This document shows positions 7,921 through 62,874 of a stretch of DNA of 64,000 nt, piece after piece. This stretch comes from Chloranthus sessilifolius. Taxonomy: Eukaryota > Streptophyta > Magnoliopsida > Chloranthales > Chloranthaceae. How positions within the stretch are numbered: position 1 is the first letter of the stretch; each line of letters opens with the position of its first letter. The position numbers were made by a program, and so were the translations under genes. The stretch lies in contig CM037597.1 of the NCBI GenBank assembly GCA_021018995.1, forward strand, positions 9,623,299-9,687,298. The letters are read 5' to 3'. The notes beneath the pieces are model-generated. The model worked only from the letters and a program-made list of their open reading frames with translations, made no database searches and had not been told where the DNA came from.

Positions 7921-8719
7921 TGCCCTTTATATTTCTTAATCTTCTCGGGCAATTTCTGGGCTATTTACATGTCCGATTTTCGGACATTATATATGTATTT
8001 TGACTATCTCGGACATTTTGGATCCGTTTTTGAGGTCTATTTTTGACAATGAGCTCTCTATTATGATATTTTTATAACCTGATGTTATTTTTTCCATTTT
8101 TTTTAATTGTGTAATCAATATTTTTTTAGTATCATTCATTAGAATTTGGTAGTGGAGGTTGTGCTCCACCACCATGGCTGGTACTTACATATTATAATAT
8201 TCGTTTATTGTCTATTTTGACACCTCCTCATAACACGTTTTGTGATCTTCTAAAATATTATCAAACCTAATATGACAACATGACTTGGAAAGATTCTTCT
8301 GCCCAACGGTGATGATCCTTCCTAGTGTCGTGGTTTTCATAGTGAGGTTTAATTTTGTCCAAGACCGTGTTACAAATTCCGTGATAGTGTGTAGTGAACA
8401 TTGACGTCACAATATAAGCGGTTCTTCTGCCCAACGGTGATGAATCCCTTAATGGTATATGATGCCTGTGTTTTACTATTCATTAGTTTGTGTGGAGATG
8501 CTAGCGTTAGACTCGACCCAACGGAGGGTCATAACGACGCAATTAGTACCGCAATCATTCATATAGATTGAGGAAGCGGCTAGTGTGTTATGACTCGACC
8601 CAACGAAGGCTCATAATGACACAAATTGTTTCTCAATAAAACCACATTGGTTTTAATTTTTATATTCCTTCACATATTTTAACTATTGCGTCACATATTA
8701 TGATTATAACCTTGTAGGA

Positions 8720-9600
8720 TTGATAGTTACTACAATTGTATGTGGAAATAATAAAGCCCTTAATTATCGTGCAGCACTGAACCCGTCTATCATAACCAGT
8801 ATAATTGGTGGAATTGAACTTTTGAGTGGATCAAATTATAAGAAATGGAATGAACAAGTTGCAATTGTTCTAGGCTGCATGGATCTTGACTATGCTATAC
8901 GATCTGATAAACTCAAGGTGCTCACCGCTGATGCCTCGACTGAGGATCTGGCAGTGAACCATACGGATTTAGAAAAATAGGATAGATAAAATCGTATGAG
9001 CCTCATGATCATAAAGAGTTCCATTGCTGATGCGATTCGGGGAGGTATTCCTGACTCGCACACTGCAAAGGAATACATGCAAGCCATTAAGAAACAATTT
9101 CAAGGGACTTCTAAAGCCATTGTCAGTAGTCTAATTGTTAAAATAGGAACCATGAAATATGATGGTCATAGCGACGTCCGAGAGCACATTATGAAAATGA
9201 GTGACATGACAACTCAATTGAAAGAATTGGACATGGGTTTTTCTGAGGGTTATCTTGTTCACTTCATTATGACTTCTCTTCCTGCGCAATTTGGCCCGTT
9301 CAAGATCAATTATAACACACAGAAAGAGAAGTGGAAGATGAATGAGCTAATCGCTCACTGTGTCCAAGAAGAAGAACGATTTCGGGCTAAAAAACCTGAA
9401 AGTGCCAATTACGCCGCTCTTGGCCCATCGAAATGAAATTTCAAGCGAAAATCGGGATAATATAAAGGAAAGAACGTGAAAGCTCCTCCACCGGAAACCA
9501 AACAAGGAGAAACTAGCACATCTATACGGCATCAAGTGTCATACAGAAGAAGGGACACATTAAGAAGAATTGTCAAAAATACAGAGATTGGCTAGTTAAG
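8720..9600 (+). pseudogene. copia gag (UBN2-type) with zinc knuckle, broken
   Basis: The capsid-like part reads LLSGSNYKKWNEQVAIVLG and then SLMIIKSSIADAIRGGI, followed by the conserved AKEYMQAIKKQF and ELIAHCVQEEERF blocks of copia Gag polyproteins. Two in-frame stops (TAG and TAA, 8978-8990) fall where related proteins have tryptophan, consistent with G-to-A decay. A further stop follows at 9434-9436. The zinc knuckle near 9530-9585 is damaged: KCH and later GHIKKNCQK are present, but the residues between them, including one cysteine, are lost by a small frameshifting deletion. Family knowledge: Gag packages the RNA in virus-like particles. Confidence 0.8.
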
Positions 9601-9621
9601 AAAGGTAATGACCTTGCTTTT

Positions 9622-23100: not shown

Positions 23101-25135
23101 TCACGTCTCTATTAGCCAACTATAAATTTTTGATATTGTCCCATGGCTGAAAAGTGCATTTTATCTCTATATTCACATTTATGTACCTTCTATGGTAGTT
23201 ATCCTTGGTCTTTTACATGAATTATTAACCTCCTCATCTATGTATCTCTCCAATTTATTCATTTTTGACAATTTATTGATTTTCCATATTTTCAGAATCG
23301 GTACTGTCAATTTCTTTCGTTTTTTTTTTTTATCGATAAATAGGTACTTGCCAGTTTCCCAAACTAGTCTGTCTGGTTTCTTCTATTAGCTCATCTTTTA
23401 CCACAAATTTGATTTTTGTTAAGTCACTCTAGGTGCATATTCCCTCAGTGTCCACCATCTATGTTGGGACTTCAAGTGGTCATCCTCAATTTCCTTGAGG
23501 ACGTGTCAGGGTAGTAGTTTAGCTTGCATGCACTGAAGGATTGTTATGTCGGCGTGCATTGAGAATAAAAGTGTGAGTTGGCTAATCGGATGAATCTTAA
23601 GGTGGATGTTTGACCTTATAATTGGTGGGTATGACCTTTGGATACACAGATTGGGCAATGGGCAGAAGGGTATAGGACTAACATCCTGTTGCTTGGGGCA
23701 ATGTTTTTAAAGTCGTTGGGCGGGTTCGGGTGGAAGTCGCCAGGCGGCGCCCAGGCGGGTACCCCAAGATCCAGGTGGCCCCGAAGTATATATCTGTATA
23801 TTTACATACATATAGTGATATACATACTTTATTTCAACATAAACATATATAATATTCATATCCATTTATAGGTTCATCGTTCGTATGATTCAAATCCACT
23901 TATAGGCGTGTTTCTTTGGGCTGAGACATGTTTCAGTGATAGATTGCCACGTGGATAATTTAGATTGATCACATATGTTCACCAGTGTAATAATGATAAT
24001 CACACTTCAAAAGTGTGAGATTAAAAATCTTAACTTTAGTGGTATAAGATCATTTAAATATTATTTTAGTGTTTAAATGTCGGTAAGGAGCATTATCCCA
24101 AGGCAATAAGGGCTTTAAAATTTAAGGGCCGTCGACGGGTCGGGTTGGCTGCGTCCAATAAAAAAATGGCATGTGCCCGACCTTTTGATAACTCGACTCG
24201 ACAAGGTAAAAGCCCATTAATTTATAAATTGCCCCACCCCGACTTTAAAATGCCCCGGCGGCCTCCCCAGACTGGTCCGCCCGGGAAGCCACTCACGGCC
24301 CCGAATCGCTCGAGCGGCCCGACCGCCTTTAAGAACACTGGCTTGGGGAATTGAGAATAGATTACTTTCAGAGATGTAGATTGTTACCTTTATCAAGTAA
24401 ATTCACGCTGTTTAAATCCACTTTATTAAATCTACGAAATATAACATAACATGAACATGAGGGACACATTGGTGAAAATTAAGTCAAAATTTTCTTTGGC
24501 TCGATACTTAAAGAGTCTAGCGGGTAATCATTTATGGGCTTGGAAGGATGTTTTCAAGCCAATGGTGGAAGCCGAATTAGGGATTTATTAGGAAAATGAG
24601 GATGGAAAAAATTAATCTCTAGCAGACCAAGGGGTTGAGGTAACTCAATTTCGCACGTAGGATGCAAGCCCTCTGCAGGAGATCAAATTTATGAGATTTG
24701 TATAGGAACATTTGGTAGCTAAAAAAACATAGTCATAATATCCAAATGCGTTGCGGATGTTTTCTTCATTTAGGTAGTACTCTTATTCCACCCAAAATTC
24801 TGATTCTGGCATTAAATCAAATAAAAAGCAAAATCATGGAAAAGGGGTTGTTGAAATACTCATCAACAAGTGTGGTCTATTTCAATCCGTGTTCACCAAT
24901 CCCTCCTGATGATTCCAAGTTATTGAAGACGAAAACGAACCCATAGACTTCGAGCACAATATGTATTAAGTTTTAGTTTTGTTGATTGATTGCATTTTCA
25001 GCAAATAGAAAACCAGACAAGCACAACAAGTACAATTTTTTTCCATTGGGCAGAAGAAAGTAGTTCTGCTATTCGGCAAAAACTTACTCCTTAGAAAAGA
25101 AAAAACCCCAAGATTTATTTGGTTAAAACCATTAA

Positions 25136-25192
<57 letters not shown>

Positions 25193-27588: not shown

Positions 27589-27984
27589 GAGTAGGAGAGA
27601 GAGAAGGTGGGGTTCCGTAGTTTTGCCTGGAAATCAGATGGGCATCTTTGGCTTTGTTTCTTGTTTTTTTAAAGAAATCTTTAGCTTTGTTTCTTGCTTG
27701 CGAAGACTTCTAGTTTCTAATTGGGGTTTTTTTTGCAAATACACCCTGTGTTATGTTGATATTACAAATAACCCCCCAGTTATAGCCATTTGCTTTAACC
27801 CCTGAGTTAGTATTTTGGTGTTCATAAAATACTCTCTTTAACGGATGCTACTTTAAATGGTTAACTAGCCGTTAAAGAATAGCCTAAATACCATATTTAT
27901 CCTTTTTAAAATTAAATTACTAAATTGCCACCCTTTATACCTGGTAAGAGTAATTTTAAATCCACCCCTCCACTTACAAAAAAG
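27589..27984. promoter_or_regulatory. Upstream region of NUB1 (promoter expected on the minus strand)
   Basis: The start codon at 27588-27586 is followed upstream by about 400 bp before the first MITE. A GA/CT-rich leader (AGGAGAGAGAGAAGG on the plus strand) fits a plant 5' untranslated region. No convincing TATA box was identified. Confidence 0.4.
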
Positions 27985-41520: not shown

Positions 41521-44016
41521 CCTAGATTATTTTGGGTGGTCTCGAGAGGAGGTTGAAGAATATTGGCCTATTTTAGGTATGCCTGCTTAGTAAATTTTTC
41601 TGGCATTTGGTCTAATGCCATTTTTTATATATTTTTTATTATTTAAGCTTGCGTAACATTTTGATTACTTTTATATATGAACTATTAGGAACAGAGGATT
41701 ATTATTATGCCTTTCTAATGGTTTTATTAGAGGAATGATCACACACTAATAAATCTATAGCACATTTTGTATTGTACATATTACAAATAGTTATTTATCT
41801 ATAAGAAAATATTTTTCTTGTGGGAGTATTATATACATGCGAATTTTACTGTCCCCAGGTGATCATCCGTTGAAATTTGGTAATTGATCTTACAAAAAAT
41901 TACTGTCACTGATAAAAAAATATCTTATAATCACTAAATTAGTTGATTATATTACCATTGCGAGCTTAGTTGATTGGTTTTGTATTTTATTAAAATGTTG
42001 CCCCAATATTTGTTTAATCCCTACATTGGACGTGAGTCATATTTTTTACCTGGTTTCACCTCAGGGTGTCTGTGTGTCTTTAATAAATATATAGTCAAGA
42101 TAAAGTATTCTACACTTGGGAACTTATATAATTTAGAGTGTTAGGTAGCTGTATGATAGAATAATTTGTATTTGTCCAAAATTTTGTAGAATCTTAAAAT
42201 TAGTGGAGTCTACAATGGCTTTCCAAGAGAATCTATAATAGTTATCGAGAAAGTTATAGAATCTTTAGACTTAGTATAGAATATGTGAAATTAGCTTTTG
42301 ACAAGACTGGATGGATTAAGGTGCCTCATAGCCATCCTGACTTAATAATACCGGTTGGGAGCTAGAATCGGCTTCTTTGGATTTTATTTAAACAATTATA
42401 TAAAATATAAATAATTTTTCAAAATTAAACAATTCAAGGATCGCAATTACTGATACAGTTGTTGTAGACTATGGGTTTGTTTTATTGAACGCAGTTATTG
42501 GTAGAGAACATAACATATTGCAGGGTTAAGTTCTTATTATGGTTTGATTCTGCTTCAGAGTTTAGGACTTTTGTAAAACGAAAATTTATTAGAGACTCAT
42601 CCACTGTTATTATTGTCTGTGATTGTGAAAGGATTTTGGTTGCAAGCCTTAGTTGTCTATAGAGAGAGAGAGGATAAATATATGGTGGATCCACGCATTT
42701 GAATAAGATAGAGTCCATGTGGCACCCATTCAAAAGATCGGGTGCCATGACAACTTGCTCAAGAATGATTAGGTCCATTTAAAAAAAAAGAGTGGTATCC
42801 ACTATCCAAAAAGTGGCCACAGGGAAAAAAAAATTACACTAGGATGTTTGTGGTGGTATCCAAACTTTGGTCAAGATTTTGACTACAAAAACTTTTTAAT
42901 TATTTTTCTAGATAGCATGGCACATGATCCCAAAATGGGAGATGTTTTAGGATCACTTGCCACGTGGCAAGTGATCTACCGTTCGAACCAGGCAGCCTCC
43001 ATGTGGCCCGATCCAGGGGATCGGGTGCATGACAGCTTGTCAAGGACGATTAGTTCCATTTAAAAAAAATTAAAAGGGTGGTATCCACAGTCCAAAATGG
43101 GGTCAAAGGGAAAAAAAAATCAATACACCAGGATGTTTGTGACAGTATCCAAACTTATGACCAAGATTTTGACCACAACAAACTTTTTTTTATGCCACAT
43201 GGCACATGATCGCAAAACGTGTATTGTTATGGAATCACGTGCCATGTAGAACGTGATATGAGATTTAAATGCATGGGTTCATCCCTCATATATCCCTAAC
43301 TTTATGAAAAAGATAAAGGTAGAAGACAAACTTGTATACTTTAGATTCCTCTTTTATTCTTTTGGGCTTTTCTTTCTATCACGTGAAGATAAAGCAACTC
43401 AAATAGCAAACCTATGTAAACTAATCAAATTAAAATGAATGTTAGTTGTGGTTATTATTTTTTGAGTTTTTATCCCTATGGACTGAAATTACATATTTGT
43501 GGATGAATAAATGTAACTAAGCATATTAAAAAAATATTAGACATAGCGCAATATATCAAGAAATTGGTAATGAAATGCAAAAAAATATTTGGCCCGCTGC
43601 TTATATTTTTATAGTGTCAACCTAGGTGCTTAACAAATATGTAATTTCCAATGCAGTCTTATTGTTATATGGCAGTGCCACCTTACACTTGTACCTTTTG
43701 CTTATTTGGCCTGATTCGCATGGAGCACACTGTGAGTTGACTCACTGCAACTGTTGATTTTCTTAAGTTGTTAAAGATGTCATTTTTTTTAGTTTCCTTT
43801 GTTCTATTTTCTTTGCATTTGTATGTAACTTATAATTTGATGCCGACTCATAGGAAGATAGACTCAATCACTGAATTTTTACTTATGCTATTTCAGGCTC
43901 ATGTACTTATATTATTTTATTTTCTAAGATACTCATATTAGTTAATAATTGAGATTGTACTCAAAATGCTACTTGTGTAGCTTGTTATATGATTTTAAGA
44001 TCGTCCCAATAGCTAC
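41521..44016. other. Intergenic stretch with a tandem duplication at about 42690-43275
   Basis: GATCGGGTGCCATGACAACTTG near 42738 and GATCGGGTGCATGACAGCTTG near 43020 each start a block continuing TTCCATTTAAAAAAAA, GTGGTATCCAC, GGATGTTTGTG and AAGATTTTGAC, a direct duplication with a period of about 282 bp. No gene is recognised elsewhere in this stretch. Confidence 0.6.
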
Positions 44017-44108
44017 CACTACGTGAAAAAGTCAAAAAAATTACTGCCTTAAACAGTGGTTTTTTGAAAAATCACTGTCTTTGACAGTGATTTTTTTATG
44101 TAAAATTT

Positions 44109-44111
<3 letters not shown>

Positions 44112-44168
<57 letters not shown>
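44112..44168. repeat. (AT)n and poly-T tract inside the CACTA left end
   Basis: A (TA)n run of about 40 bp followed by a run of T, next to the subterminal repeats. Confidence 0.9.
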
Positions 44169-45096
44169 AAATTACGTCAAAAATTTTTTATGCAAATTTT
44201 TTTAAAATAATATTTTTTTATGCTTCTTTTTAATGCAATTTTTTAATGCTTTTTTTAATGTTTTAAAAAAAATTATATAAAGAAAAAAAACTATTAATCT
44301 CATATTTAAATACATCCATTCAACTCAAATGCAAATCATTCAATGCCATTAATAAATAAAATAGATGCCCAATTCTTTTATTCAAACAAAATATTGCATC
44401 TCAACCTATGATCCAACCTTTCAAATCAACCAAATATTTTAAACTTTACATGCTCAATCCTTTTATTCAAACAAAAATAAAGAAGAAAAGAAAGAAAGTT
44501 AACAATCTAAGGATCCCATGACCTATTTTCATAATTAAAAAAAAAAAAAAGTGCTTCGCCTCTCTTGCCAAGTATCCCCGTCCTCTAGTGATCCGTTTAA
44601 GGTGAGCTTCAAATTGAAAAGTTTCGCCTGAAATAAAAAAGAGAACGTAATTAAATATTTATGATATTAAATAATTAAATTGAGATATTGATGATATTAA
44701 GCAATTAAACTGATAATACTCCCAAACACAGCCTAATTTTTTTGATTTCAGGCTGTGTCGCCTGAAATCAAAAGAATTCATGTAATGTTTGACTGAAGAG
44801 AAAAGGTTAAACAGGCTTGAACACAAAAATAAAATACCATGCATAATCACAGGTGATCTGATCTACCAACCAAAGATTGCTGGGAATCAAGTATTTAAAT
44901 ATCAGGTTTAGCCAAGGACTTGCCCCGGTCCAAAACCGAGTAAACTCGGTTTCAACTGGTCCAAGTTGTGCCCCTACAAACATGAACTTAGCTGAGACTT
45001 ATATCAAGTTGACTCAGTTTCAGTTTGAACCTAAACCTGGTCGATTCAACTGAGTTCTTAAACGTTGCTGGGAATACTCTTGGCTTCTCACAATAC

Positions 45097-45177
45097 CTGT
45101 TATTCGGTCATAAACATCAGCATCAGATTCTCCGTTAGGAAAGCAGTAAAAGAAACGGCCATAGCGACAAGGAGTCC
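45097..45177 (-). pseudogene. Captured exon of a phosphoglycerate mutase-like protein (AT74 family)
   Basis: The minus strand reads CRYGRFFYCFPNGESDADVY then DRITG, matching the conserved RYGRFFYRFPNGES.ADVYDR block of plant AT74-type phosphoglycerate mutase-like proteins. The exon is bounded by an AG (45179-45178) and a GT donor (45096-45095) that splits the Gly codon. One Arg of the family is Cys here, as expected from CG-to-TG decay. The upstream exon with the catalytic RHGE motif and the downstream exons are not found, so this is a single captured exon and not a working gene. It lies inside the CACTA element on the same strand as the S4 exons. Confidence 0.7.
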
Positions 45178-46437
45178 CTAGCACAATTTCTTAGCCACAA
45201 GACAAAAAAAAGGAAGGTACATATCTAGAAATTCATCCATAATAAATGTAGTTTGATGGCAAACGTAAAAGGTTCAACAACTATGTGGTAACAAGAACAG
45301 ACACAACTTTCTGGCTCCAACCAATGCAAAAGACAATAAACAAAAATAAGTCAAAGGTAGTTGATATCTCTGAAGAATCTCAACCTTTTTTGAATCAGTT
45401 GCAGCAAGTACTTCTTTTGCAGTAATGGGCATGAAAAATAGTATTAGTAGTTACACTCCAATAGGCAACATTACTTGTATGAGTAAATTAATAATATTGT
45501 ATACACAAAATCACTAAAACTATCTTTTGTTATCAGTGTATGATATCCAACAATAGATAGCAGGCAATCAGAACAACCAAGTAAACCAGGGTATGCATTA
45601 ATAAATAATTGACATTGCATAGAGGACATTTACCAAGAGGCTGTGTTACCGCCAAGCAAATGGGGTGAGGAGCTGTGTTACCAAATGTGAAAGCAGTTCT
45701 CTGTTAGAGACAAAAATGAAAAGAATATAATATGGACATGGGTGAGATTCTCTGTTGCAGCCAAATTGTTAAAAGGTTGGAATTCTTGAAAACAAGTGAG
45801 TGGATAAATGTCTCTACCCATGGAATTCGTGCATGTGGGCATCGATCGAAACCGTCGATCCAATTAATGCCCCCACCTCTAAGATGGGTTTCAATTCCCA
45901 TACTCGCCATCAAAAATGAAAAGATGGGTCACTTGTTTCAATTCTCATACTTCCCATCAAAAAAGAAAAAGATGGGTCACCACTTGGATGGTTTTTTTTT
46001 CCTTTTTTTTTTATCGATCTGATTAAATTTTCAACCTTGCGAGGGAGGTACCAAAGCTAGGCCCTTAGAGAGAAATCCATCACCGTGGCCCGGTCGAACT
46101 CACCAAAAGAGCAGATTCCCAACTGAATCAGTCTCGAAGTCCCCCGGGGGACCCACACGTTGGCCCAGGTCCTCAAATCTCTAGCAACTTCGCTAATCAA
46201 CCTCTTAGATGGGTTTTGATTCCCATACTTCCCATCAAAAAATAAAAAATGGGTCACCTCTGGGATGAGCCATATAAAAAAAATTGGACTGATTAGAAGG
46301 CATTTGATTACTAAGATGGTTAGGATCACTGAGTTTGTGAAATTTTTGGGTCATAGAGGATCCAAGAGGGTAGCCATTGGAGTATAAAGCTATATATATG
46401 CCAACCTTTTTTATACTATAAGAGAACTCTCTTCTCT

Positions 46438-46535
46438 TTTTTTTTTTTTTTTTCCTATAAGCTTATATTTATTGAACCAGAGACCTCATGGTTGCAATAT
46501 CGTGAACCTTCCAGTTGAGCCATAGGACCACCCCC
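46438..46535 (-). mobile_element. tRNA-derived SINE remnant
   Basis: On the minus strand, GGTGGTCCTATGGCTCAACTGG resembles a tRNA 5' end with A box (TGGCTCAACTGG), and GGTCTCTGGTTCAATA lies about 40 bases later as a B box. A run of about 17 A follows, seen as poly-T on the plus strand. This order of A box, B box and poly(A) marks a pol III-type retroposon. Confidence 0.55.
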
Positions 46536-46606
46536 TAGTAGAAGGAGGAATCGTTTACTTAGTGTACCTCTCTGCTTCGGAATCTCATTGCCGCTCCTAC
46601 TTTCCG

Positions 46607-46841
46607 CCATAAAATGGTGTAATTTTAACCTTTTTAGGACGCTCTCACCACCAACCTACAACACGCTTCATGCCCCTTCCTATAACTAAGCCCAACACCC
46701 TATAGACTGAAAATTAGACCACGGCCATAAAATGGTGTAATTTAAACCTTTTTAGGACGCTCTCGCCCCCAACCTACAACACGCTTCATGCCCCTTCCTA
46801 TAACTAAGCCCAACACCCTATAGACTGAAAACTAGACTACG
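46607..46841. repeat. Tandem duplication, 2 x 118 bp, nearly identical
   Basis: CCATAAAATGGTGTAATTT starts at 46607 and 46725. Both copies run through CCTTTTTAGGACGCTCTC and CCCAACACCCTATAGACTGA with only a handful of substitutions. It lies within the CACTA element. Confidence 0.92.
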
Positions 46842-47947
46842 GCCCCAAAGTATCTCCTTCTGTCATAAGGAAGGATACCGACAACATCTTGTATCAGACG
46901 ATTACTGTGAACTTGGTTCAAAGAGAAACAAACAAACAAGAGGATCAGCACATGGTTGCCTCCTTTTGCTGAAAGCCACAGTTGGACACTAATGCAAGGG
47001 ATTAGGCCTATAGCCCAATGGAAGGTGTTGACAATATTACAACCTCTAGGTTCCAGGTTTCATCTCACACCTAAAAAATGATTTTTGAGATCATGGGCGC
47101 AAATCACGGAACACATGATGGTTCCATTTTGGATGTTGTTTGACTTCATGGACTCAACGATGGAGATCATTTTTGTTTCATCTTTACAAAATAAATCTTG
47201 AGAACAGGGGTCAAACCATGGAACACATGATGATTCCACATGGCATACATCTCATAAAGTGACCCAAGTACCAAGAGCATCAGCGCTTGAATAAAGTACC
47301 TAATGACAACTCAAGTTTAAAAGGGGCAAGTGCCTTTAACAAAGTAGCTTGTACTATTTTATGGCCAGTCCTTGTAGACCCATTAATCATATATATAAGC
47401 AATGAGGGAAAGGGAAAGGGTCCTATGAACTCAAGTTAAGTTAACCTAACGGGCCTGAAACGGATTCACATACAGTCAGAAAAAGCATGCACCTATTCAA
47501 AGGCCTTGCTCGAATTGATCTATAAGGGATCGACATAATAATTGAGCTATTATTTAGGCTACTGGCGATCTGTGATGAGTCGTGAACAAGGGCACATCAA
47601 AGAACTCCCCGAAGCGAACAAGGCGCAAGCACATTTTGCCAACATGCTAATGAGTGGACTATTGTTAGCACATTTTTCTGAGTCAATTGAGAACCAAGTT
47701 TCGATGCATATCTCTTGGTCCGTGCCCTAGCTCATTAAGTACATAAGATAGCATATAAGAAAGTTTTAAAAATAAGAAGTGAACCAGCCTATATTTGCTT
47801 AGAAGTGATCTTTAGGACAAAGTTAGCAGTTAATAAGTTTAAGGAATTGGTTACTGGAAACATAACTATTTGCAAGTAAAATGGGCTTAGTATCTCTAGA
47901 TAAAATCAATTGATAAATAGTCAGTTTTGTTAACAATAATTTTAAAA

Positions 47948-48232
47948 GGTAGCTCTATTTGCACGTACAGAATCTCTAAGGGAACCAACGCCGAAATCCA
48001 TTGACTGCTTTGAATCAGACGATGGAGAATCATCTGGCATATCACGAGAACCACATTTGATCACTTTTTGGGATGTGTGCCACATGGAATCAAAATCTCA
48101 CGGTCTAACGGTGCACCCATGGTCAGATCCATTGGAAGATTAGGACGAAAAAATGATCTGCCTCATTCAAAGTACCATCGGTTTTCGCATTGGTGTTCTT
48201 TAGAGATTTGCTAGTTGCAAATAGAGCTACCC
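47948..48232. mobile_element. Mutator-like foldback MITE, family A, nested in the CACTA element
   Basis: The ends are GGTAGCTCTATTTGCAC at the left and GCAAATAGAGCTACC at the right. The flanks ATTTTAAAA and TTTTTAAAA are a 9-bp duplication with one mismatch. It is shorter than the copy at 16953 because the central part of the hairpin is deleted. Confidence 0.8.
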
Positions 48233-49194
48233 TTTTTAAAAATGAATTCAAATTCCTAATTTGCCAAAATTTGCACCTTATTGATCATATCAAAGGATAA
48301 AGAGTGATAAAATGTTACCTTTACGGTCCAAAACTTTCCTCATCCCTCTTCCTCTAAAAGTGCTCTTAATCTATTGAAGAAATACCCTACAGACCTCAGA
48401 TGATCTATTAACTGGTCGAGTGTTGAGTAAATATCGCCTGAAACTTTGTGTCTCTTGTCTTCAACTATAAATTCATGAACGTTACCATCATTGCATTATC
48501 AATAGATCCTATATTAGAAAATTATCAATAGATCCCGTGTTTAAAAATCCTCTTTCTACCGACCAAGTTGACAAATAATTATTGAATCATCACCTTTCTT
48601 TGTGCCCTTTAAAGTAGCGGAGGATTCGATTATCATACATAGATAGGTATTGACCCATTCATGACCAGTAAAAACACATACCAACGTTAGAAGACTAATG
48701 TGCACTTGCAAAAAAAAATATCTTCCTTACTCCATTGCAAATTTTGATTTACACTTCATTAAATACTTCATTTTGATGTTTTTTAAATTCAGGCTTACTT
48801 ATTTAGCCAAAAAATTTGCAGAATTACAGCAGCTCCTCAAAGACACATAAATTGTAGAACAACGTAAAGGTTGGTAACTGATTAAGCTGCAGATGGACAA
48901 GCATTTATTTGTTCATGCCATGGAAATTGTAGAACAATGTAAATTCAGGCTTCCTATATCATCTTGCAGTAATAAGCAGTAGGGCTAGTATGTCCTATAC
49001 CTATTAAAAAACAGAGCAGGTAGTCTGAAATCAAACAAGGTTTATGGAAAATATGCATGAATGACTAAACAAGGTTTTAGAATTAAGGAGAGGATGGGTT
49101 GTTCTAAGGAAATGAATAGATTCCTCATTTATTTGTCTCTGTAAAATAAAAGGGAGCTATTCCTTGAACACATAAAATTGGCCCAAGTACACAA

Positions 49195-49445
49195 CTTAGA
49201 AGAAAGACTCGGTATCTCGGGGGACTTGTGCCCTATGAAAACACCATCTAAGCCATTTGATTTGAAGGCCATCTAAAGATTGGCCCCAAACTCCATATCT
49301 ACCATATGATTCAATGCAGTCAATGGGCATCATCGGATTCGATGGTTGACTTCGTGCTAATTTTTTGCTCCAAAGATCTCTAGATCTTGGCCTTCAAATC
49401 AGATGTCTTAGATGGATTTTTCATTGGAGCGACGCCCTTTTAGGC
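49195..49445. mobile_element. Foldback MITE, family B-like, nested in the CACTA element
   Basis: ACACCATCTAAGCCATTTGA, AAGGCCATCTAAAGATTG on the left and GATCTTGGCCTTCAAATCAG, ATGTCTTAGATGG on the right form the arms. Related to 41235 and 58600. Confidence 0.6.
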
Positions 49446-50035
49446 CATACAACACACATCTTTGATTAATCTAAACCACAACTATTAAAGGATTTCAAAC
49501 ATCTGATTGGTGTACTTTAGCATTGACCGTTAAAAAATTATGAACAACAATTCATTTACAGTACATAGATAGTTCAGATCCCCAGGTTTGATTTTTAAGC
49601 TCACTTCGGTTCAATATATGAGCTACAATTTTGGTGAATTGATTATTCAAATACTGTACATTTTCCGCTCATGGGACAGGCATTATAGATTATTCTAGAT
49701 GATCAAAAGTATAAATTCAATGTATTGTTTTATACAAATTCTATGAAAGTCATCTAGTAAAAAGTGCATATATGAAAAAAAAATTGAGCTGATAAGCAGA
49801 TGTGAACCATCCGAGTGGTTCAGCAGTAAGAAACTAGATCAACTGTTGATATTAGAGTGTGCACAGTCAGCTGATTCAAATTTTCTGCAATGTGTGATTT
49901 TCGAACCCACTTCCATTCAATGCATGAGTTATCACTTTGATGTCTTAGATTACTCACATCTTACACTTTTAATGGTGTAAGATTTTACACTCAAGTGTTC
50001 AAATGGCATAGGACAGTTGGGTCCATAAAAAAACA
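49446..50035. repeat. Family C repeat, nested in the CACTA element
   Basis: GATGTGAACCATCCGAGTGG, AACTGTTGATATTAGAGTG and AATGGTGTAAGATTTTACAC match the family C copies at 20680, 23860 and 36480. The LINE piece at 50036 begins immediately after it. Confidence 0.5.
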
Positions 50036-51590
50036 ATTACTTTGGGCTTTGAAGCAGGGAGCCTCCCTGTGAAGTATCTTGGGCTTCTTCTATTCTCTTC
50101 AAGGTTAAACTATAGTATATGCCTTCCTATTTTTGAGAAATTCAGTAAAAACTGGAAACTTGGAATGCTTCTCATCTATCCTAATGCAGGAAGATTGGAG
50201 TTAATATTAACTGTACTAAGCACTTATCAAGTTTTTTGGTCATTCGTCTTTGAACTCCCCAAAACAGTAGGGAAAAGGGTGGAATCTTTCCTTTATAATT
50301 TCATTTGGAAAGGTAATTCTTTATCCGACTCGATGCATCCAGCTAGCTAGAATAAAGTGTGTAAACCAGTTGAAGGAGGTTTAGGAGTAAGGCGTATAAA
50401 GCATTGGAATGAGGCAGGCCTAATGAACCTTATTTGAATGATTGCTACGAATCCTGAATCATTGTGGGCATGTTCGATTAGTGCGAAATATATCGGAATC
50501 AGTGACATATAGTCAAATTGTCCACCAAGGAACTCATCTTAGTGCAGTACTGCAGTCCGAAATCAACATTGAAGCTAAGATTTCTTTTGTCATTCCAGAC
50601 GGGGTATGGAATTTACCTATACCATCCATTAGGAAAATGACCCACATTCCGGAAAATCTATTCGAAGACGGGCTGATTTGGGTGCCTACTAGTAATGGTA
50701 GATTCTCGTTCAAATCTGCTTGGATGGAGACAAGAGATAAAACTCAAAAGAGTAGGTTGGCATCAAGTGCTTTGGCCCAAGTGGAATATACCAAAACATA
50801 GTTTTATTTTATGGCTTGCTATCAATAGCAAACTAATGACTGTTGAAATCTCAATAAGAGGGTGGTTTCTTTCTTCCATCACAATGTGTTTTGTGTTGGG
50901 AGGCTGCAAAAAATAATTACTATATATTATTTGACTACAATTTTTCAAATTGAATTTGGAGATCAGTTAGAGCAAGGTTTAGGAATTCGGCAAGAGTAGA
51001 TTGGTAATGTTATCCAAGAGCTGAATTTAAAAGTTGAGATTGCAAAAGCTAAAAATCAAGTGGGATTGATCATCATAAAACTAGGTTATTGTGCCACCAT
51101 TTACCATGTCTGGATTGAGAGAAATAAGAGAATCTTTGATGATATTAGCACACATAAAAGATAGTTCTCTAAAATCTCATTCTCTCTCTTGGAGAGAATG
51201 TAACAGGCTTGCGGACTTCCTCAATTTCTCTTGGAGAGAATGTAACAGGCTTGCGGACTTCCACAATTTAAAAGGTACGTGTGAGGATTTTGTTATTAGG
51301 TGGGAAAATTGGGCTTCTCTGCCATCAGATCTTTCTCGGTATGATTAATGAGGACATGTATATGGTGTATTCTAGAGTTCATCGGACTATGATGGAAGGG
51401 TGATGGCGATGCCGAAGCTCTAAAATTGTACCCAGTGATATTTCAGCATATACATCATTTGTCAGATAGCTTGGCCCTGTTTTTTTTTTTTTTTTTTTCA
51501 CCTCCTTGTCCATAATTAATTTATTTGATTAATAAATGGGCAAGGCCCCAACAACCTCAAGCGTATTTATCAAAAAAAAATACATGAAGG
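50036..51590 (+). mobile_element. 5'-truncated L1-type LINE (end of reverse transcriptase and zf-RVT region)
   Basis: The open part at 50042-50350 reads GSLPVKYLGLLL, then AGRLELILTVLSTYQVFW and FLYNFIWKG, the region following the reverse transcriptase core in plant L1 elements. It continues as GGLGVRRIKHWNEAGLMNLI, with TAG and TGA in place of tryptophan codons. A frame-broken zf-RVT-like part follows (FSFKSAWME, HSFILWLAINSKL, YHVWIERNKRIF). A 42-bp unit (GGAGAGAATGTAACAGGCTT) is duplicated at 51189-51272. It ends with AATAAATGGGCAAGGCCCC and a short A-run near 51575. It is dead, inserted in the CACTA element. Confidence 0.85.
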
Positions 51591-52269
51591 AACTATGGAG
51601 AGCTTAGCTTACAAATCTAACCAAAAAAGACTCATCCACATATCAGTTTTGACCTATCTACTTCCTTTTAAGTGGTTATATAAAGAGATGTCACTATCAT
51701 TGCCACTATCATTGCTTGAAATATGAATACAATCAAAATTAAAGAGATGTCAAACATATACCTTTTCTTAGCCATGTACTACAGCATCTTTTGGTAGAAT
51801 TACTAGATAAAATCCCACCTCGGTCAGCTGCAGATAAATAAGGAGATATACCAATGAAAGAATCTACTAATAATTCTTAATCAAAGCTCGGTCAACAAGT
51901 TCCTTAAAACCATTAATCTAGGTAAGCTATCCCATAAAAAAATCAAAGCTCTAAATTATGATAATATCAGAATCTGGTACCATACAATTACTGCTGAAAA
52001 GATGATGAGCAGGTAGTTAAATTGATCTGCATGATGAGCTGTCTTTAAGTCCAGCTGGGTGCAGCAGGGAAGAGTCATTCCTTAACGTGGGGAGTGAAGA
52101 AAAATAAAGAGTTTACATTCTAATGGTGTTGGACTGCATGCAAAGTTATTTGAAACAGTGGAGTAGATTTTGTCTATACAAGAACTTATGACCAACAGAA
52201 CAGATATTTCAGCAAAACAACAAAAACAATCAAAGTTCACTCTAGGGCCATTTAACTAAAGAGTCTTAC

Positions 52270-52558
52270 CTGATTAAAGTAACAAGTTTAGAACGTGATA
52301 TTTTAAATCCTGCACTAGCTAGGGCATCCACTCGCAATGATGCTTCAATGGCCTTGAACGATTTAGTCCTAAAAAAAGTACACGGCTATTTGTATTGTTG
52401 TGTTTTGGTTCAAATAAAATTTCTCACTTTAAGGAAGATTGAAACCATAAAAATACTGAAATAGTAAAAAAGGTCAGCAAAATAATCCCTAACCTTGGTG
52501 GTTCATACTCTAATGCAAGCAATGGTATCTCTTTACAAGACACTGGAACATTACCAAC
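52270..52558 (-). pseudogene. Two captured exons of the photosystem II S4-domain RNA-binding protein
   Basis: Exon A (52558-52494) encodes VGNVPVSCKEIPLLALEYEP then PR. Exon B (52368-52270) encodes TKSFKAIEASLRVDALASAG then FKISRSKLVTLI. Joined through GT-AG borders they give a continuous frame across the split Arg codon. This is the start of the S4 RNA-binding domain and the linker before it in the plastid YlmH-like protein known as photosystem II S4-domain protein. The donor after exon B (CAG|GTAAGA) is intact, but the next exon, which should continue NGDVRVNW, is not found, nor are the N-terminal exons. The fragment is well preserved, so capture is recent or selection has acted. Inside the CACTA element. 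Confidence 0.8.
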
Positions 52559-54405
52559 CTGCAAGATGAAAATAAGTAATATAGGAAAGTTATTAGCGGT
52601 AATCCACAGTAAAAATAACAGGTATATCAGACATGCTGATTAATCATAATCATCAGCTGCTCTGCATAATCATAATCATCAGCTGAGACGTACAATGAAC
52701 CATACACTTTAAGCGAGGGAGTTTTTAGTTTTTTCCTATTGGTATATGCCTTAATTGCAAGGTAGTAATTTAAACTAGTAGCTCCTTTCAAAGAAAAAAA
52801 AATTAACCAGTAGCAACTAATGCTTATTCTGTCCACAAGATGGGAGACTTTAGTTTGTGAATTCAGTTATCCATTTTTCCAAAATTTTAGTGACTAAGCA
52901 CATTGAAAGGGGGGCAAATATAAAGATGGAAATGGAAAATAACAAAATTTCCAGCTTTATTTCTTGATTCAATATTTTTTTTGTGTGGACGTCCAGAGCT
53001 GTTCAACAACACAAAATTAGAGCTTGCTCATCAAAGGGATTCGCATCCATAAGCAGCAACAATCCCCTAACTCAGCAATTTGCATCGACATTCTTTTTTA
53101 TAATCAATATAGTATGACATGTTCTAAAGAACCCATGTTTCCAAAAGAGAGAATAATTGAATGTTATAATATTAATTTTCAGATTCGACTCTTTTGCAAG
53201 CATAAAATATAACTCAGCCAGTGCACTCAAGTAATAGACTAGTTCAGTTGTGTTATAAAAAAGATGACCTGTGATTAAAGTGCAGCTTTTAGTTAAAGTT
53301 TCCAACCAAGCAGATATTAAGGTTTACAGCCCCAAGCAACGTAGAGACTGACCAAATTTTCAACCCAAGTATTATGCAGCAAGAATATTTTAGGTTTTTC
53401 TTCCAAACCATCCTGCCCAAAAATAGGTCCTCAAATTCTAAATTGGCACACCAAAAAGCAATGAAAAACATCCAAATGTAAATATTAAAACAAATTGGCA
53501 TACCAAAAAAGATGGAAAACATTCTTCCGTGGCAGCAATAAATCGGTCACATTTGGCAATAACATCCATACCTTAGATGGCAAGAAAATTATTTACTAAA
53601 ATATCAAGTTAAAATTTGGCGCTTTAAAAAAAAAAAAAACAAACCATCACGAATCAAATCATTGGACATGTCATCCTGATACCTATATATTGACATTCTC
53701 TATTTGTTTAATCCTATTCATGGAAAATGGGTAACAGAAATGCAGTACTCTTAAGGAAGAGCTACGTAAATCAATAGCCGACCAACGACTGGCCGAGCTA
53801 AAGATAATAAATGGCATGAAGATTACCTAACCCATCACAGCAATGATCCTTTAAGTGTTGGTCATTAGCCTGATAGGCATATAATACAGACAACAAGGCA
53901 TATAAACGATTCCACAATGATAAAATGAATATTCCAACTTTAATCAATACACTGAAGCAATAGTGGTGTGTTGGGAACTGTAAGTGAATTGGAAGGCCAC
54001 TGATACATTCATATCTGTGAGAAAAAAAGGGAAGTCAAGTATTGGTGCAGTAAGCAAATCCAAAGGTAATTCAATAATATAGTGCCTACATCTCTCCTCA
54101 AATGTTTCAAATCTCCTATTTTTTCACTTCAGCAGAGGAATCTTGAAGTCCTTAAAAGTAGCAATTTCCCATATATGTTGCCCTTATTAGAAACAACAAT
54201 TTTCCCCATACAATTAAACATACTTAAAAGAAAACACAATACCCAGCGAGGCTTGGAGAACAACAGCACCTTCTACGAAAACAAGCTCCAAAGAAGACAC
54301 CTTCTGATGAAATCTCAACACCAACTATAGTTCGCATACCTCCTAAAATTAACTTGAGCTTCATCTAGCCATTGTGACATAATTTAGTGAGAACATAACT
54401 GGTAC

Positions 54406-54620
54406 CTCAGTATCATGGTGAAGGGAGAAGGGAGATGGGAGACGGTTTGAGTTCGGGAGAAGGGAGATGGGAGATGGAAAAACGCAATTATATAGTGGCC
54501 CGATTGAAGGGTCGTGGGCTTAAGTGGAGTGGCCGGGTTAGTTTGCGGGGGTTGGCCCAAATCCTCCCCTACGCTGACGGCACATTAATTCCAGCTGTCG
54601 GCGTATCCGGTAATTTTTGT
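54406..54620 (-). promoter_or_regulatory. Captured host-type promoter with a short first exon
   Basis: On the minus strand, TGGGCC/TGGGCT-type (site II) motifs lie at about 54500-54560. A TATA-like CTATATAATT follows at about 54496-54487, then a CT-rich leader with repeats of TCTCCCATCTCCCTTCTCCC, then ATGATACTGAG ending at a GTACC donor (54405-54404). That would be an 11-nt coding start (MIL plus a split codon). Site II motifs are common in promoters of housekeeping and organelle-protein genes. A possible continuation through 53690-53655 and 53573-53515 keeps the frame open but is speculative. It lies upstream of the S4 exons on the same strand. Confidence 0.45.
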
Positions 54621-55985
54621 AGTGTATCATGTTTAGCCTCTCGTTTCCCTGTCATCCGCAAGGAGACTAAGGAGCTGAGGTGGGGAGGAGTTGGAGCTGA
54701 GATCTAATAAAAAGAGATCTAATGAAAAGGGAATTATGAGGCATTTTTTATAATTAGGGTAAACGGTAGGGTAAGAAATAAATAACCTTTATTTTTATTT
54801 TATTAATTTTCTATGCAAAAGAGTTTTCTTTAATAAAATGATATAAAGGATTACAACATAAAAGGGGAGGACTTAGGAGTACATGAAAACATCAACAAAT
54901 TGAATCTCTTAAATCAACCATTCTCAACCTGAATCACTATGTTGATCCTATAAACAGATGAAATTTTGTTTGTGAAATGAAGCAAGTAATTGTAAGCTAT
55001 TTCAAAAACCTCTTAAAAAATTACTACAACTTTTGATTATTTAGGAAAAGAAGGAATCCTAATTCGTTGCTCGAACTTTCAGAACCTACCCTAACTTGAC
55101 CCAAACCCAATAATAAAATGATTGGATCAAGATCTTCCTTAACCCAAACCCAAATCGGATGAAGTACAAATCTATCCTGGCCTGAAATCCTAAATGGGTC
55201 TGCCAAATTTGATAGTGTTACCATTGGTGCCGGTCAGTTTTAGATCATACCTCCATAACGTTCCGATCACGGAAGAGACTGATGACCCCACTTGCCACGT
55301 GGACTAATCTGCTCCAGCCTCATTTCACAGGACACTATTATAGCCCCTTCATACTGTAGTTTAAATATAGTTATCATCAAATATTGTCATTCCCCTCTCC
55401 TAAACCAGTTCCAACTTAAAATCTGATAACATAAAAACACATGAATCTTAGGAAGAAGGCAACAACTCTTCACTATTCATATTTCTAGACCAATGAACAA
55501 GGATTTTGGCCCCTGATGAAGTTTTTCTATCTTCACGTTTAGGTTCAACAGCCAACACGCTTCAAGAGAATGCAATGCAAGAGGTCCACGTGGACTAAGG
55601 TTCAAACTGACCGCGCAATCCCAGCCCTAAGATCAGAGCACTATTTGTTCCTTAATGTGGACCGTCATGACATGTTTGTTGCCTTTAACATCTATTTGTA
55701 GGATATCAATCAGATGGTGAATTACATAGGAGCCATAGATGGTAAAAATCATTATTCACTAAACTAATGAGAAATTATTATATGCTTCTCCTAAACAACT
55801 CCAATGCATGTATCGAGCTAAATCGATATGACGATGAAAATTTTCTGCAATTTATTCCTACAGAGTTGCACCTGCCAAAAAAGTTTAGGAATGACTGCAA
55901 ACATAATATAAAAATAAAAAAATGATTTAATGATTACTCATCTTCAAAATCAGAGTATGGATCATTAAAAATAAAGATTTTAGCA
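54621..55985. other. CACTA interior, nothing recognised
   Basis: AT-rich sequence between the captured promoter and the second LINE piece. No exon with matching splice borders could be supported. Confidence 0.4.
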
Positions 55986-55989
55986 TTTA

Positions 55990-56340
55990 TTTATTTATTT
56001 TTAAAGGCAACAACAAGAGGGTGGAAGAACTGGAACATTACATTATTCAAAATGGTTGGGACTTAGAGCTCTAATTTAAGATGCACAGAAGAAAAAACAA
56101 AATATCATAATCTCTTGAGAGAAGAAGAGTCAATGTGGCACCAGAAAGCTAGAAACAAGTGGTTGGATAAGGGAGATCGGAACACAGCCTTTTTTCATTC
56201 TTCAACTAGGATCAAAATTATTCAAAAAAGCATATCGAGAATCAAAAATAAAGAGGAGAAAGCATTCCACAAACAATCAGAGCATTCCCCTACACAAAGC
56301 ATTCCACAAACAACAAACCCTAGTTTTACTATTTGGTAGA
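55990..56340 (+). mobile_element. LINE fragment (segment between endonuclease and reverse transcriptase)
   Basis: LLREEESMWHQKARNKWLDK followed by GDRNTAFFHSSTRI is the conserved E-E-x-x-W-x-Q-K-(A/S)-R-x-x-W-L-x-x-G-D-x-N-T-x-F-F-H block of plant L1-type ORF2. Only about 80 codons survive. It is not contiguous with the LINE piece at 50036, so it is a separate insertion or a captured piece. Confidence 0.75.
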
Positions 56341-56437
56341 TAGAAATCGAGAATGCAGATCAAATAAAAAAATTCAAAGATCTACCTTTTTAATACGCAA
56401 TTTGACTCCAAAAATGCCGAAATCTCCTTCGTCTTAC

Positions 56438-56700
56438 AGGGATTTGAAGAAGGAGAAACAGAAGATCAAGCAACATTGATTTCCGGCGAGCTAGGGTTCT
56501 ATGAAGTCGTCTTGCAGAGCTTTGAAGGAGAAGAAGAAGATCTGGAGAGGTGGTCGGCGATCTAAGATTGAGAATCGGTTTGTCGATTTGGAATGGGTGG
56601 TCGGCAATAGTTAGGGTTTTTGGCGAGGGAGGGAAGACGGGAGAAAAAGTGATCGAGAGGAAAATGAAAAGAAACGCTTGAGGGAGCTTTTATATATGCA
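56438..56700 (-). promoter_or_regulatory. Promoter and 5' exon-like region just inside the CACTA right end
   Basis: On the minus strand, CATATATAAAAGCTCC (56697-56683) is a TATA box about 180 bp inside the terminus. A CT-rich leader with AAAAACCCTAAC follows, then an ATG at 56476 starting MLLDLLFLLLQIP, and a CCT|GTAAGA donor at 56437. This is where CACTA elements normally start transcription inward. It would place the captured exons further along the same strand under one transcript, which is an inference. Confidence 0.5.
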
Positions 56701-56875
56701 TTGTAGTGATTTTTTTAAGCGGTCAATTTTTGGGCGTGGGATTAGGGTTAACGAAATAAACCACTATTTTAAGTTAATAAACAATGGATTTTGGGAGTGG
56801 ATTATTACACCATTGCTAGGGCAGTGGTTCTTTTTTATATTGCAAAAGTAGTTTTCTTATCATTTTGACGTAGTG

Positions 56876-58599
56876 TACCTTGCAGAATGCTTTTGACATG
56901 TAATATTGGGAACATTTTACAAGAAAATGAGTTTCAAATATTAAACAAATGTGAAAATTTGTCGTTTATCTTCCCTTTAGTGTCTTTGCGGCCTTCTACA
57001 TAATTTCATATCTGATTTTATTTTTTTTAAAGTTATCTGAGCTGCAAATAAAGTTGCCCTTATAATATATCAGTTTCATCTATTGCCATATTCATTTTAG
57101 CAGTTCTTTATATGGATGTTTTCCTCTTGTAAAGCATAAGAAAACCTAGCAAATCGTCCATAATTGAATTCTCACTGATCTGTTATGCTCAATTTTTCGG
57201 ATGCCACTAAGGAACATAACTAGTGCAGTTCTTTTTATGAATGTTTTCCTCCAGCAAATCGTCTATAACTGAATTATCACTGATATGTTATGGTCAATTT
57301 CTCCCATGGCACTAAGAAACATAACTGTAAATGAAATGGTCCACATGTGAGGTTAGTAGGATGCACAAAAATTTGGGTGGATTCTGTTCATCTTCAAGTT
57401 TGGGGTTTGACCGATTAGAGTTTATTTTATTTTATTTTTTATTTTTTTTATTTTTTGGGAAATGGTTTTTTTTAGAGATTTTTCATCATTCTGAATCTGC
57501 TTTGTATGTTTTGGATTGTTTTTTGAGATATTTATTTACACTTGATACTATGTTTAAAAGGTTGTATTTTCTTTCTCTTGTATAGGTACTTTAGCATGTG
57601 ACCTTGGCTTTATTTAGTCTGACAATGAATGGGAAGAAGAAGACAATGATGATAAATGGTTGTACTCGGGCTAAATCCAAATAAGGAGGAAAGCTAGCAA
57701 ACAATGTGTTGTATTCGAGTCTCAATCCAAATCAACAAGAAAACCATCAAAAAATGATCTCTTTGTACATATTGATGATTGTAGTTTTTATTTACTTATA
57801 TTATTTAATATTAAATTAAATGTACTCTAATCTATATTGACAATGTTGTTGTTCATGGTTATTAATTCTTAGCATATGTTTTAATAATTACAGAGAATTG
57901 CTCCATTGATGCTTATAGATAATTTTTTATGATTGAAGCTCAGTGACTTGATTTTAAGCTTTATGGTTACCTACTATGATCCAGGCAAAATACTTTCATT
58001 TGATAATATTGGTGTTGTTCTTTCCTAATTTAGATGATATTTATCTTCAATATAAGTGTTCGGTGGGACCAGGTGGTTTAAGTCACTAAAGAACTAATTG
58101 ATGAATCACCTCGCACTAATGAGTTTTGGGACCAAGTGGTTTAAGTCACTAAAGAACTAATTATATGTTTTGTTTCTCTTCTGTTAAAGTTCGACTTCCA
58201 TGTTTTATGTAGTGACAATTATAAAATGCATCAGATATGAATAGTTTCTACGTCTTATTTTATTGAAGAATGAAGGTTGCTTCACTCCCATTATATTGGC
58301 TCGATCAAGGGTTGAAAAATCACAAGCTTGTAGAGTCATTAGTTTCCATTTTAATTATTAATGAAGATTGATTAAAACAAATCCCATCATATTGGTACAG
58401 TTTTTGGAAGTCTGAGATCAATAAAAATAGTACAAAGAAACACTAATACACCCACTCAGAAATAATCACTTAATTTACGATGACCTACGAATTGTTTTTG
58501 TTTAAATAAACGGGCCTCACGTACATATATATATATGTATATATATCCCACATGACACACATCCAAGGTTGACTGAGCCATTATTTCCAAACACCAAGT
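56876..58599. other. Intergenic stretch with a short tandem duplication
   Basis: GCAGTTCTTTATATGGATGT to CACTAAGGAACATAACT (about 57100-57210) is repeated at about 57223-57330 with changes. GGGACCA-GTGGTTTAAGTCA also occurs twice (58070 and 58128). I could not support any exon, although the frame at 57640 (GKKKTMMIN) looked briefly gene-like. Confidence 0.5.
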
Positions 58600-61146: not shown

Positions 61147-61440
61147 TGTCTCCAAATAAACAAACCGTAGAGATTTGAGAATATAAATTAACGAGTCAGA
61201 GGTCTCACGGGCCAATAGAAAGAGATTTTTCCAACGGAAAACGGCCTCCTTTCTTCTTCTGTTTTTCTCATCGCAGGTAAAACCCTAAGATCTAGGGTTT
61301 CTGCTACCGATCCACACCAAATTGATCTCGAACAATCTCCAACCGTTAAAATCTCTGATCACAGTAAGTCTCTGCACCTTCTTTGTTCGTTTTGGATCCG
61401 TTGTTAATCGATTATATAAGTTTACCTTGTTACCGAAACA
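61147..61440 (+). promoter_or_regulatory. Promoter and 5' untranslated region of the AVT6 gene
   Basis: This short interval between the MITE and the start codon contains a CT-rich block (CTCCTTTCTTCTTCTG), the telo-box-like AAAACCCTAAG and its mirror TAGGGTTTC near 61277-61303. CACAGTAAGTCTC near 61360 could be a 5'-UTR intron donor. No clear TATA box was identified. Confidence 0.5.
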
Positions 61441-62874
61441 ATGGATAGTAATTACTCTGCGATCCCGAGAAATTCATACATAGAATTGCAATTACAAGAT
61501 ATAAACGTTGATTCTAATGTTCTTCGATCCGAAAACCCTAAGTTTAATCAAACGATCGGCCTAAAATCAGGGTCGATCGAAGATGATTACGAAGACGGTG
61601 AGGGTTTTCCCCTTAATATCGATGAGGTTAAAAACGGATCGGGCGTCTCTGGCGCCGTTTTTAACCTTGCAACATCGATCATCGGTGCCGGAATTATGGC
61701 CCTCCCGGCCACCATGAAAGTTCTTGGGCTGATCTTAGGTTTTTTCATGATAATTGTGATGGGGATTTTGTCGGAAATTAGCATCGAATTGCTCGTTAGG
61801 TTTTCGGTTCTTCAGAAAGCTTCCTCTTATGGAGAACTCGTAGAATCTGCATTGGGTCGTCCTGCTAAGATCGTATCTGAGATCTGTATAATCGTTAACA
61901 ATGCCGGCATTTTGGTTGTTTATTTGATAATCATTGGTGATGTTGTGTCCGGATCTGCTGATCACATCGGCGTTTTATCTCAATTGCTAGGAGATGGGTT
62001 TTGGGATCACCGGATGGTCGTGATTTTGATAGTTTTAGTTGTTTTCTTAGCTCCACTTTGTGCTCTTGAGAAGATCGATTCATTGAGCTTGACTTCAGCC
62101 GCTTCCGTAGCCCTCGCCGTAGTTTTTGTGATTTTATCATGTACAATTGCATTTGTTAAGCTTATCGAAGGTCGGATCGAGAGTCCGAGGGCAGGCCCTG
62201 ATCTAGGTTCAAGAACGGCAATTTTGGATTTGCTTGTCGTAATTCCAATCATGACGAATGCTTACGTGTGTCATTTTAATGTTCAGCCCATTTATAACGA
62301 GCTCGAAAACAGATCTCCCGTGAAGATGAACAGAGTAGGAAGGATCACGACAGTTGTGTGTGTTATCGTTTACGCTGCGACCGCTGTATCGGGTTATTTG
62401 TTGTTTGGGAACAATACAGAATCGGATCTTCTGACCAATTTTGACAGGGACCTCGGGATTCGGTTCAGCTCGATTTTGAACTATGTTATTCGAATCGGGT
62501 ATATTCTTCATCTGGTGCTTGTGTTTCCAGTCGTCCATTTCTCGCTTAGGCAGACGGTTTATGGCTTGGTTTTTGATGGATCTGAGAGTAGGAAGAGGTT
62601 GTTGGGTTTGACTGGGGTGTTGTTAGGGCTTATCTATCTCGGATCGACGATGATACCCAATATTTGGGTGGCTTTTAAATTTACTGGTGCGACCACAGGT
62701 CTATCTTTGGGTTTCATATTCCCCGCTCTTGTTGCATTGAGGCTAGATCAGAAAGGAGAGTCTTTGCAACAGGGGGAGAAGCTTTTGTCGTGGGTGATGT
62801 TAGTATTGGCGGCCTCAGTGAGCATCATAGGAGTAATGGGGAATATTTATAGCATCAGTAATAGGTCCGATTGA
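61441..62874 (+). CDS. AVT6: AVT6-type vacuolar amino acid transporter (AAAP family, SLC38-like), intronless
   Basis: 477 codons, ATG in the context GAAACAATGG. After a hydrophilic, acidic N-terminus (residues 1-62) come about eleven hydrophobic segments. The first holds GAVFNLATSIIGAGIMALPA (71-90), the signature of SLC38/AVT amino acid permeases. YVCHFNVQPIYNELENR (275-291) is the second conserved block, and VFPVVHFSLRQTVYGLVF (361-378) the third. Length and single-exon structure fit plant AVT6 members. Family knowledge: AVT6 proteins are tonoplast carriers that move amino acids, chiefly acidic ones, out of the vacuole by proton symport. The exact member (AVT6A-E) cannot be decided. There is no truncation or missing block. 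A foldback MITE lies in the promoter. Confidence 0.93.
   Translation: MDSNYSAIPRNSYIELQLQDINVDSNVLRSENPKFNQTIGLKSGSIEDDYEDGEGFPLNIDEVKNGSGVSGAVFNLATSIIGAGIMALPATMKVLGLILGFFMIIVMGILSEISIELLVRFSVLQKASSYGELVESALGRPAKIVSEICIIVNNAGILVVYLIIIGDVVSGSADHIGVLSQLLGDGFWDHRMVVILIVLVVFLAPLCALEKIDSLSLTSAASVALAVVFVILSCTIAFVKLIEGRIESPRAGPDLGSRTAILDLLVVIPIMTNAYVCHFNVQPIYNELENRSPVKMNRVGRITTVVCVIVYAATAVSGYLLFGNNTESDLLTNFDRDLGIRFSSILNYVIRIGYILHLVLVFPVVHFSLRQTVYGLVFDGSESRKRLLGLTGVLLGLIYLGSTMIPNIWVAFKFTGATTGLSLGFIFPALVALRLDQKGESLQQGEKLLSWVMLVLAASVSIIGVMGNIYSISNRSD

Follow-up and report, generated by a model that had tools for sequence, protein, structure and literature searches.

A 12,859-bp CACTA (En/Spm-like) element lies at positions 44017–56875 of a 64,000-nucleotide stretch of the Chloranthus sessilifolius genome (C14:9623299-9687298, here called the window; genome 2.17 Gb, 32 contigs). 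It is very probably a non-autonomous copy, inserted as one unit between TAC duplications, of a tnp2-bearing family in which pieces of host genes entered once and then spread, and a hybrid of two subfamilies, A and B. Family members of 18.5 and 21 kb have both a tnp2 transposase region and the same photosystem II S4 gene piece, and AT74-like and PPR gene pieces occur in some relatives as well. The S4 and AT74-like pieces each entered the family once and then spread, and the PPR piece probably did likewise. In the window copy the transposase region has been lost, the left part is of subfamily A and the right end of subfamily B, and between them lie 3.1 kb of foreign DNA with a third CACTA terminus.

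The insertion has inverted ends, CACTACGT[G/C]AAAA, and is bounded as follows.

44014..44016, no strand, TAC target duplication, left copy
44017..44030, plus strand, left terminal inverted repeat CACTACGTGAAAAA
56862..56875, minus strand, right terminal inverted repeat CACTACGTCAAAAT, inverted, terminating at 56875
56876..56878, no strand, TAC target duplication, right copy

The genome contains 876 occurrences of the right-terminal 15-mer and 4 of a reversed control, so the terminus motif is beyond chance. The subterminal 5-mers CACTG, CAGTG, CACTA and TAGTG number 4 in the first 100 bases, a count reached by only 0.09% of the window's 100-base stretches, and 4 in the last 180 bases (window mean 0.30 per 100). 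They resemble the subterminal repeats of the CACTA superfamily, dense near the left end and sparser near the right. Inverted CACTA termini, a perfect TAC duplication and subterminal repeats had all been reported in an initial annotation of the window and hold up. The terminal inverted repeats, the 3-bp duplication and the tnp2 region of larger relatives place the element in the CACTA superfamily. As in Pack-CACTA elements, no transposase of its own is present, host coding DNA lies between the ends, and the insertion entered as a unit.

An older repeat surrounds the insertion, and the flanks therefore permit a strong empty-site test. A search with the 202-base joined flanks yielded 11 matches: the window's own two flanks, 7 insert-free sites matched across the joint, and 2 partial matches. 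The 7 empty paralogous sites are 71–79% identical to the joined flanks and lack the whole interval; 3 of them were fetched and aligned, and all were unbroken through the joint. Because the joined flanks match empty sites across the joint, the whole 12,859-bp interval behaves as a single insertion. The mosaic interior described below might otherwise suggest a misassembly, or two independent features whose ends happen to coincide. Given the empty sites and the recurrence of the internal joints on other contigs, the likelihood of either is negligible.

Three pieces of host genes lie between the ends.

52058..52618, minus strand, captured photosystem II S4 gene piece, parent C8:118863020-118896847
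52494..52558, minus strand, S4 exon, both splice borders present
52270..52368, minus strand, S4 exon, both splice borders present
44900..45167, minus strand, AT74-like gene fragment (partial exon 45097-45167 and downstream intron) with the native donor but not the native acceptor
45718..48490, minus strand, PPR gene 3′ end and 3′ flank, likely parent C1:3434317-3437769

The initial annotation had named two unrelated host fragments on the minus strand with intact splice borders. That strand does hold both S4 exons and the AT74-like exon; the PPR piece at 45718-48490 with its coding tail was overlooked, as were a foreign CACTA right end at 54624 and a long interspersed nuclear element (LINE)-like fragment. 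Likely parents of the S4 and AT74-like pieces were found on contigs C8 and C3, and that of the PPR piece on C1, not side by side. By the refutation test that the initial annotation had set itself, these separate parents and the empty sites without any of the interval speak for its reading. Pfam searches of eight open frames of the element, short captured exons included, returned nothing naming them. The identity of the S4 piece was settled by TIGR03069 and that of the PPR piece by PPR and E-motif models on relatives.

Across the two S4 exons, 54 of 54 residues equal the parental gene and all four borders are AG/GT. A genome search with TIGR03069 gave 17 matches from 19 candidates, comprising four exon matches on C8 and 13 copies of a single exon, the window's included. 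The C8 locus is taken as the parent because its four exon matches stand in gene order. Six of the 13 exon copies were read amid element sequence (window, C12, C14, C3, C5 and C1c), and the tnp2-bearing relatives of 18.5 and 21 kb both contain the piece. When aligned to the parental kilobase, 5 of 5 other read copies start at parental base 20–22; four reach the far end of that kilobase, and C1c ends at 760. All six element copies compared have 7 substitutions and 2 indels in common against the parent, and in the window piece 3 of 542 sites depart from the majority of the six. These 6 copies give no indication that the S4 exons are under purifying selection (9 nonsynonymous and 5 synonymous changes, site ratio 363:123).

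For the AT74-like piece, a 56-amino-acid query gave 27 matches from 31 candidates. Of these, 25 are at places with left-end sequence (window included), one is a 68% paralogue, and one is C3:169983528. The last is the likely parent; it has a fuller exon, bordered upstream by an AG, with the reading RFPNGESAADVYD. The element piece begins within the exon at 45167, and the 5′ exon part and acceptor are missing, so the claim of intact borders stands for S4 and fails for the AT74-like exon, in which only the donor is native. The parent match ends at 45167 and 25 element matches extend past it. Because the parent match stops at this joint while element copies continue, the acceptor side of the exon is not native. 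C9:101.698M, too, has the sequence beyond the joint, and the overlap there is 3 bases. Ten element copies were compared, of which 7 were translatable; at the position of a parental A, 6 have D and 1 has N, and 4 of the 7 carry residue changes beyond the common A-to-D. The lower limit of the fragment, 44900, is set by the end of the fetched parental DNA.

The PPR coding tail at 48343-48489 retains the last 49 codons of the gene, together with 2.6 kb of 3′ flank. Pfam gave the window's own tail an E value of only 0.037, and the C12 relative has a 260-amino-acid frame with PPR and E motifs. Six PPR matches at ≥93% were found among the best 147 of 2446 candidates scored, and the sole long frame among them is at C1:3436990-3437769 (695 amino acids; others 206–260). 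The C1 locus is colinear with window positions 45718-47000 (95%) and 47000-48490 (92%). A 118-base tandem duplication (96%) is found inside the 3′ flank at 46606-46841. Frames resembling PPR in C2 and C1b gave E 0.007 and no match, respectively, and are not claimed.

The common S4 substitutions and indels, the equal start base and the 25 matches across the AT74 joint argue for a single capture of the S4 and of the AT74-like piece. The initial annotation had proposed that exons of at least two host genes were collected by this one element on its own. A missing transposase region, intact ends with a duplication, and host exons inside would suit that proposal, and the element is a carrier of unrelated host pieces. 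However, other copies and tnp2-bearing relatives have the identical pieces, joints or derived bases, which argues that an ancestor captured the pieces and makes collection by this copy highly improbable.

Ten relatives were assembled from 20 fetched stretches. The left 1.5 kb of the element has many genome matches, the longer ones at 88–97% identity (best 40 of 2185 candidates scored). Left terminus motifs were found in 8 of the relatives and right ones in 6; in C1b the right terminus precedes the left. Matching 3-bp duplications flank C14 (18,520 bp, CAA), C5 (20,983 bp, AAG) and C1a (15,354 bp, GGA). The tnp2 domain (PF02992) is encoded on the minus strand in C14 (E 2.9e-35) and C1c (E 2e-43), as is PF13963 (Transpos_assoc); C14 has DUF4218 as well, on the minus strand. 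The tnp2 region of C14 is colinear in C5, and that of C5 in C12.

Closer sisters at C15:83.85M and C3:133.66M have the window's right junction and right end with other 3-base right flanks, and differ from each other in internal deletions. The join at 48490 is crossed at five places: the window, both sisters, C6:111.93M and C10:123.85M. This common join defines a sublineage of at least five elements. C10:123.85M lacks 49162-50825, and the right-end query matched there only from 55715 on; its left flank is TAC, and GAA and TGT follow its two right termini, so it may be either a nested insertion or a composite that has moved.

Apart from the host pieces, the window copy is built of the following parts.

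44017..45641, no strand, left-end block, CACTA subfamily A, 99 matches (best 40 of 2185 candidates scored)
48491..51698, no strand, stretch absent from C5, C12 and C14; 48500-51683 common to C6:111.93M at 95%
50042..51580, plus strand, LINE-like fragment with A-rich end, zf-RVT match, genome copies
51699..52061, no strand, subfamily A block on the left side of the lost transposase region
52058..52061, no strand, deletion joint with 4-base overlap; 7.2 kb of C5 including the tnp2 region gone
52610..54624, plus strand, right portion of another CACTA element, with inverted terminus CACTACAAAAATTACC ending at 54624
54625..55718, no strand, DNA after the foreign CACTA end; same succession at L010 and L012-L014
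55715..56875, no strand, right-end block, CACTA subfamily B

The zf-RVT match in the LINE-like fragment (E 9.3e-6, 26.7 bits) is below the 27.5 cut-off. The embedded foreign right terminus (54609-54624) recurs at L011 and L016, there with different flanks. At L010 and L012-L014, sequence of the 3.1-kb insert 52610-55718 continues beyond both window junctions, so the insert is a piece of something larger. The subfamily B right end is common to L041-L044 over 2.6 kb, and beyond the terminus the window right end differs from those of C5, C14 and C1a. Within this block, a LINE-like frame at 56067-56260 was recognized by eye without Pfam support, and sister right ends match over it.

Two routes to this structure were weighed. 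Two neighboring CACTA insertions may have been mobilized by their outer ends, with deletion of the inner termini leaving the 52610-55718 insert and the A/B hybrid. The available text of PMC13317346 credits such a model to Catoni 2019. An A-type left end, a B-type right end, unrelated DNA between and the absence of both inner ends fit this route, and we give it an even chance. The 4-base overlaps at two of the joints (52058-52061 and 55715-55718) could equally stem from abortive gap repair in which short homologies let the template switch to other DNA. The 3-base overlap at 45165-45167 and the differing internal deletions of the two sisters also suit repair. Gap repair alone does not explain a right end from the other subfamily, and at 52610-52618 the coordinates of the joint overlap by 9 but its letters agree only imperfectly; repair is a credible route with somewhat less than an even chance. 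Among the loci read, none has subfamilies A and B adjacent, a point against neighboring insertions. At L040:1331-2664, two tandem CACTA right termini stand 1.3 kb apart, the outer altered to CATAGTG. The inner is followed immediately by subfamily B sequence, and the L040 duplication did not resolve.

Besides the lack of an adjacent A and B locus, several points weigh against a hybrid member of a family with singly captured pieces. Seven of the 13 S4 exon copies are known as matches only, without context. The S4 and AT74 parental loci were read over 0.5–1 kb only and the PPR parent was located through matches, so that the limits of capture are provisional. AT74-like is a tentative name for its fragment, for which Pfam returned nothing. 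Cargo is uneven among the relatives, with C5 lacking the AT74-like piece and C14 the PPR frame, and 4 left-end copies end before the AT74 exon. Relatives C4 and C8 have a right terminus with flanking duplications that do not match. The C15 and C3 sisters were compared at their right ends only. Across the tnp2 region, the longest open frames seen have 398 and 414 amino acids, so that an active transposase source is at most putative.

In the favored history of a tnp2-bearing family with a hybrid derivative, the host pieces would have entered the family and multiplied with it. Copies that lost the transposase region would depend on the transposase of relatives. A hybrid also formed, with the right end of the other subfamily and foreign DNA between, and it now occupies at least three loci. 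The joint probably arose from two nearby CACTA insertions mobilized by their outer ends or from template-switching repair at short homologies. The window copy was probably moved by transposase from a relative, and the gene pieces were probably passengers. All three pieces lie on the tnp2 strand (minus), an arrangement with a chance of 1 in 8 that is no evidence by itself. Retention of the exons for the family's benefit, through splicing into the transposase transcript or small RNAs against the parent genes, appears unlikely.

Left of the element, minus-strand frames at 17843-27633 include a UBA domain at 17843-18145 and, at 27256-27633, a ubiquitin-like domain, and may form one putative NUB1-like gene. 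Copia-like retrotransposon frames at 8657-12483 were recognized by eye. Near-identical 40-base stretches at 6838 and 13404 may be part of the long terminal repeats of this element. An amino acid transporter frame of 484 amino acids (61420-62874; PF01490, E 7.7e-59) begins about 4.5 kb right of the CACTA element.

Host-gene capture by CACTA elements is already published, and the present copy adds a well-resolved further case. The available text of three sources describes Pack-CACTA (PMC8903248), soybean Tgm-Express1 with five host gene fragments (PMC1947982) and Chenopodium CACTA elements with fragments (PMC8978399). The window copy resembles the available description of Pack-CACTA in its CACTA ends, 3-bp duplication, host coding DNA and missing transposase (PMC8903248). 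It differs in that its pieces are common to tnp2-bearing relatives and that two subfamilies are joined. Like Tgm-Express1 as described there, it is a CACTA element with several unrelated host gene pieces kept as exons and introns. However, Tgm-Express1 is 5.7 kb, lies in an F3H intron and has demonstrated splicing, and the window site appears intergenic (PMC1947982). The Chenopodium elements, in the available account, likewise hold host pieces outside the coding sequence in elements with a transposase-region domain ('TAD CD', taken as transposase-associated domain), with other hosts and other genes (PMC8978399). The same source cites a title on En/Spm-related elements capturing host genes, the Tpn1 family of morning glory. 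Soybean Tgmt* is a 20.5-kb CACTA element, near relatives C5 and C14 in size; its main text, as available, does not use the terms 'host gene' and 'captured' (PMC2613891).

The family provides a multi-copy gene-capture series with located parents, common joints, tnp2-bearing relatives and a subfamily hybrid. This series could help separate the neighboring-insertion model from template-switch repair. It also carries a warning for annotation of this genome, in which 25 copies of the AT74-like exon, and a minimum of 6 and as many as 13 copies of the S4 exon, are transposon cargo.

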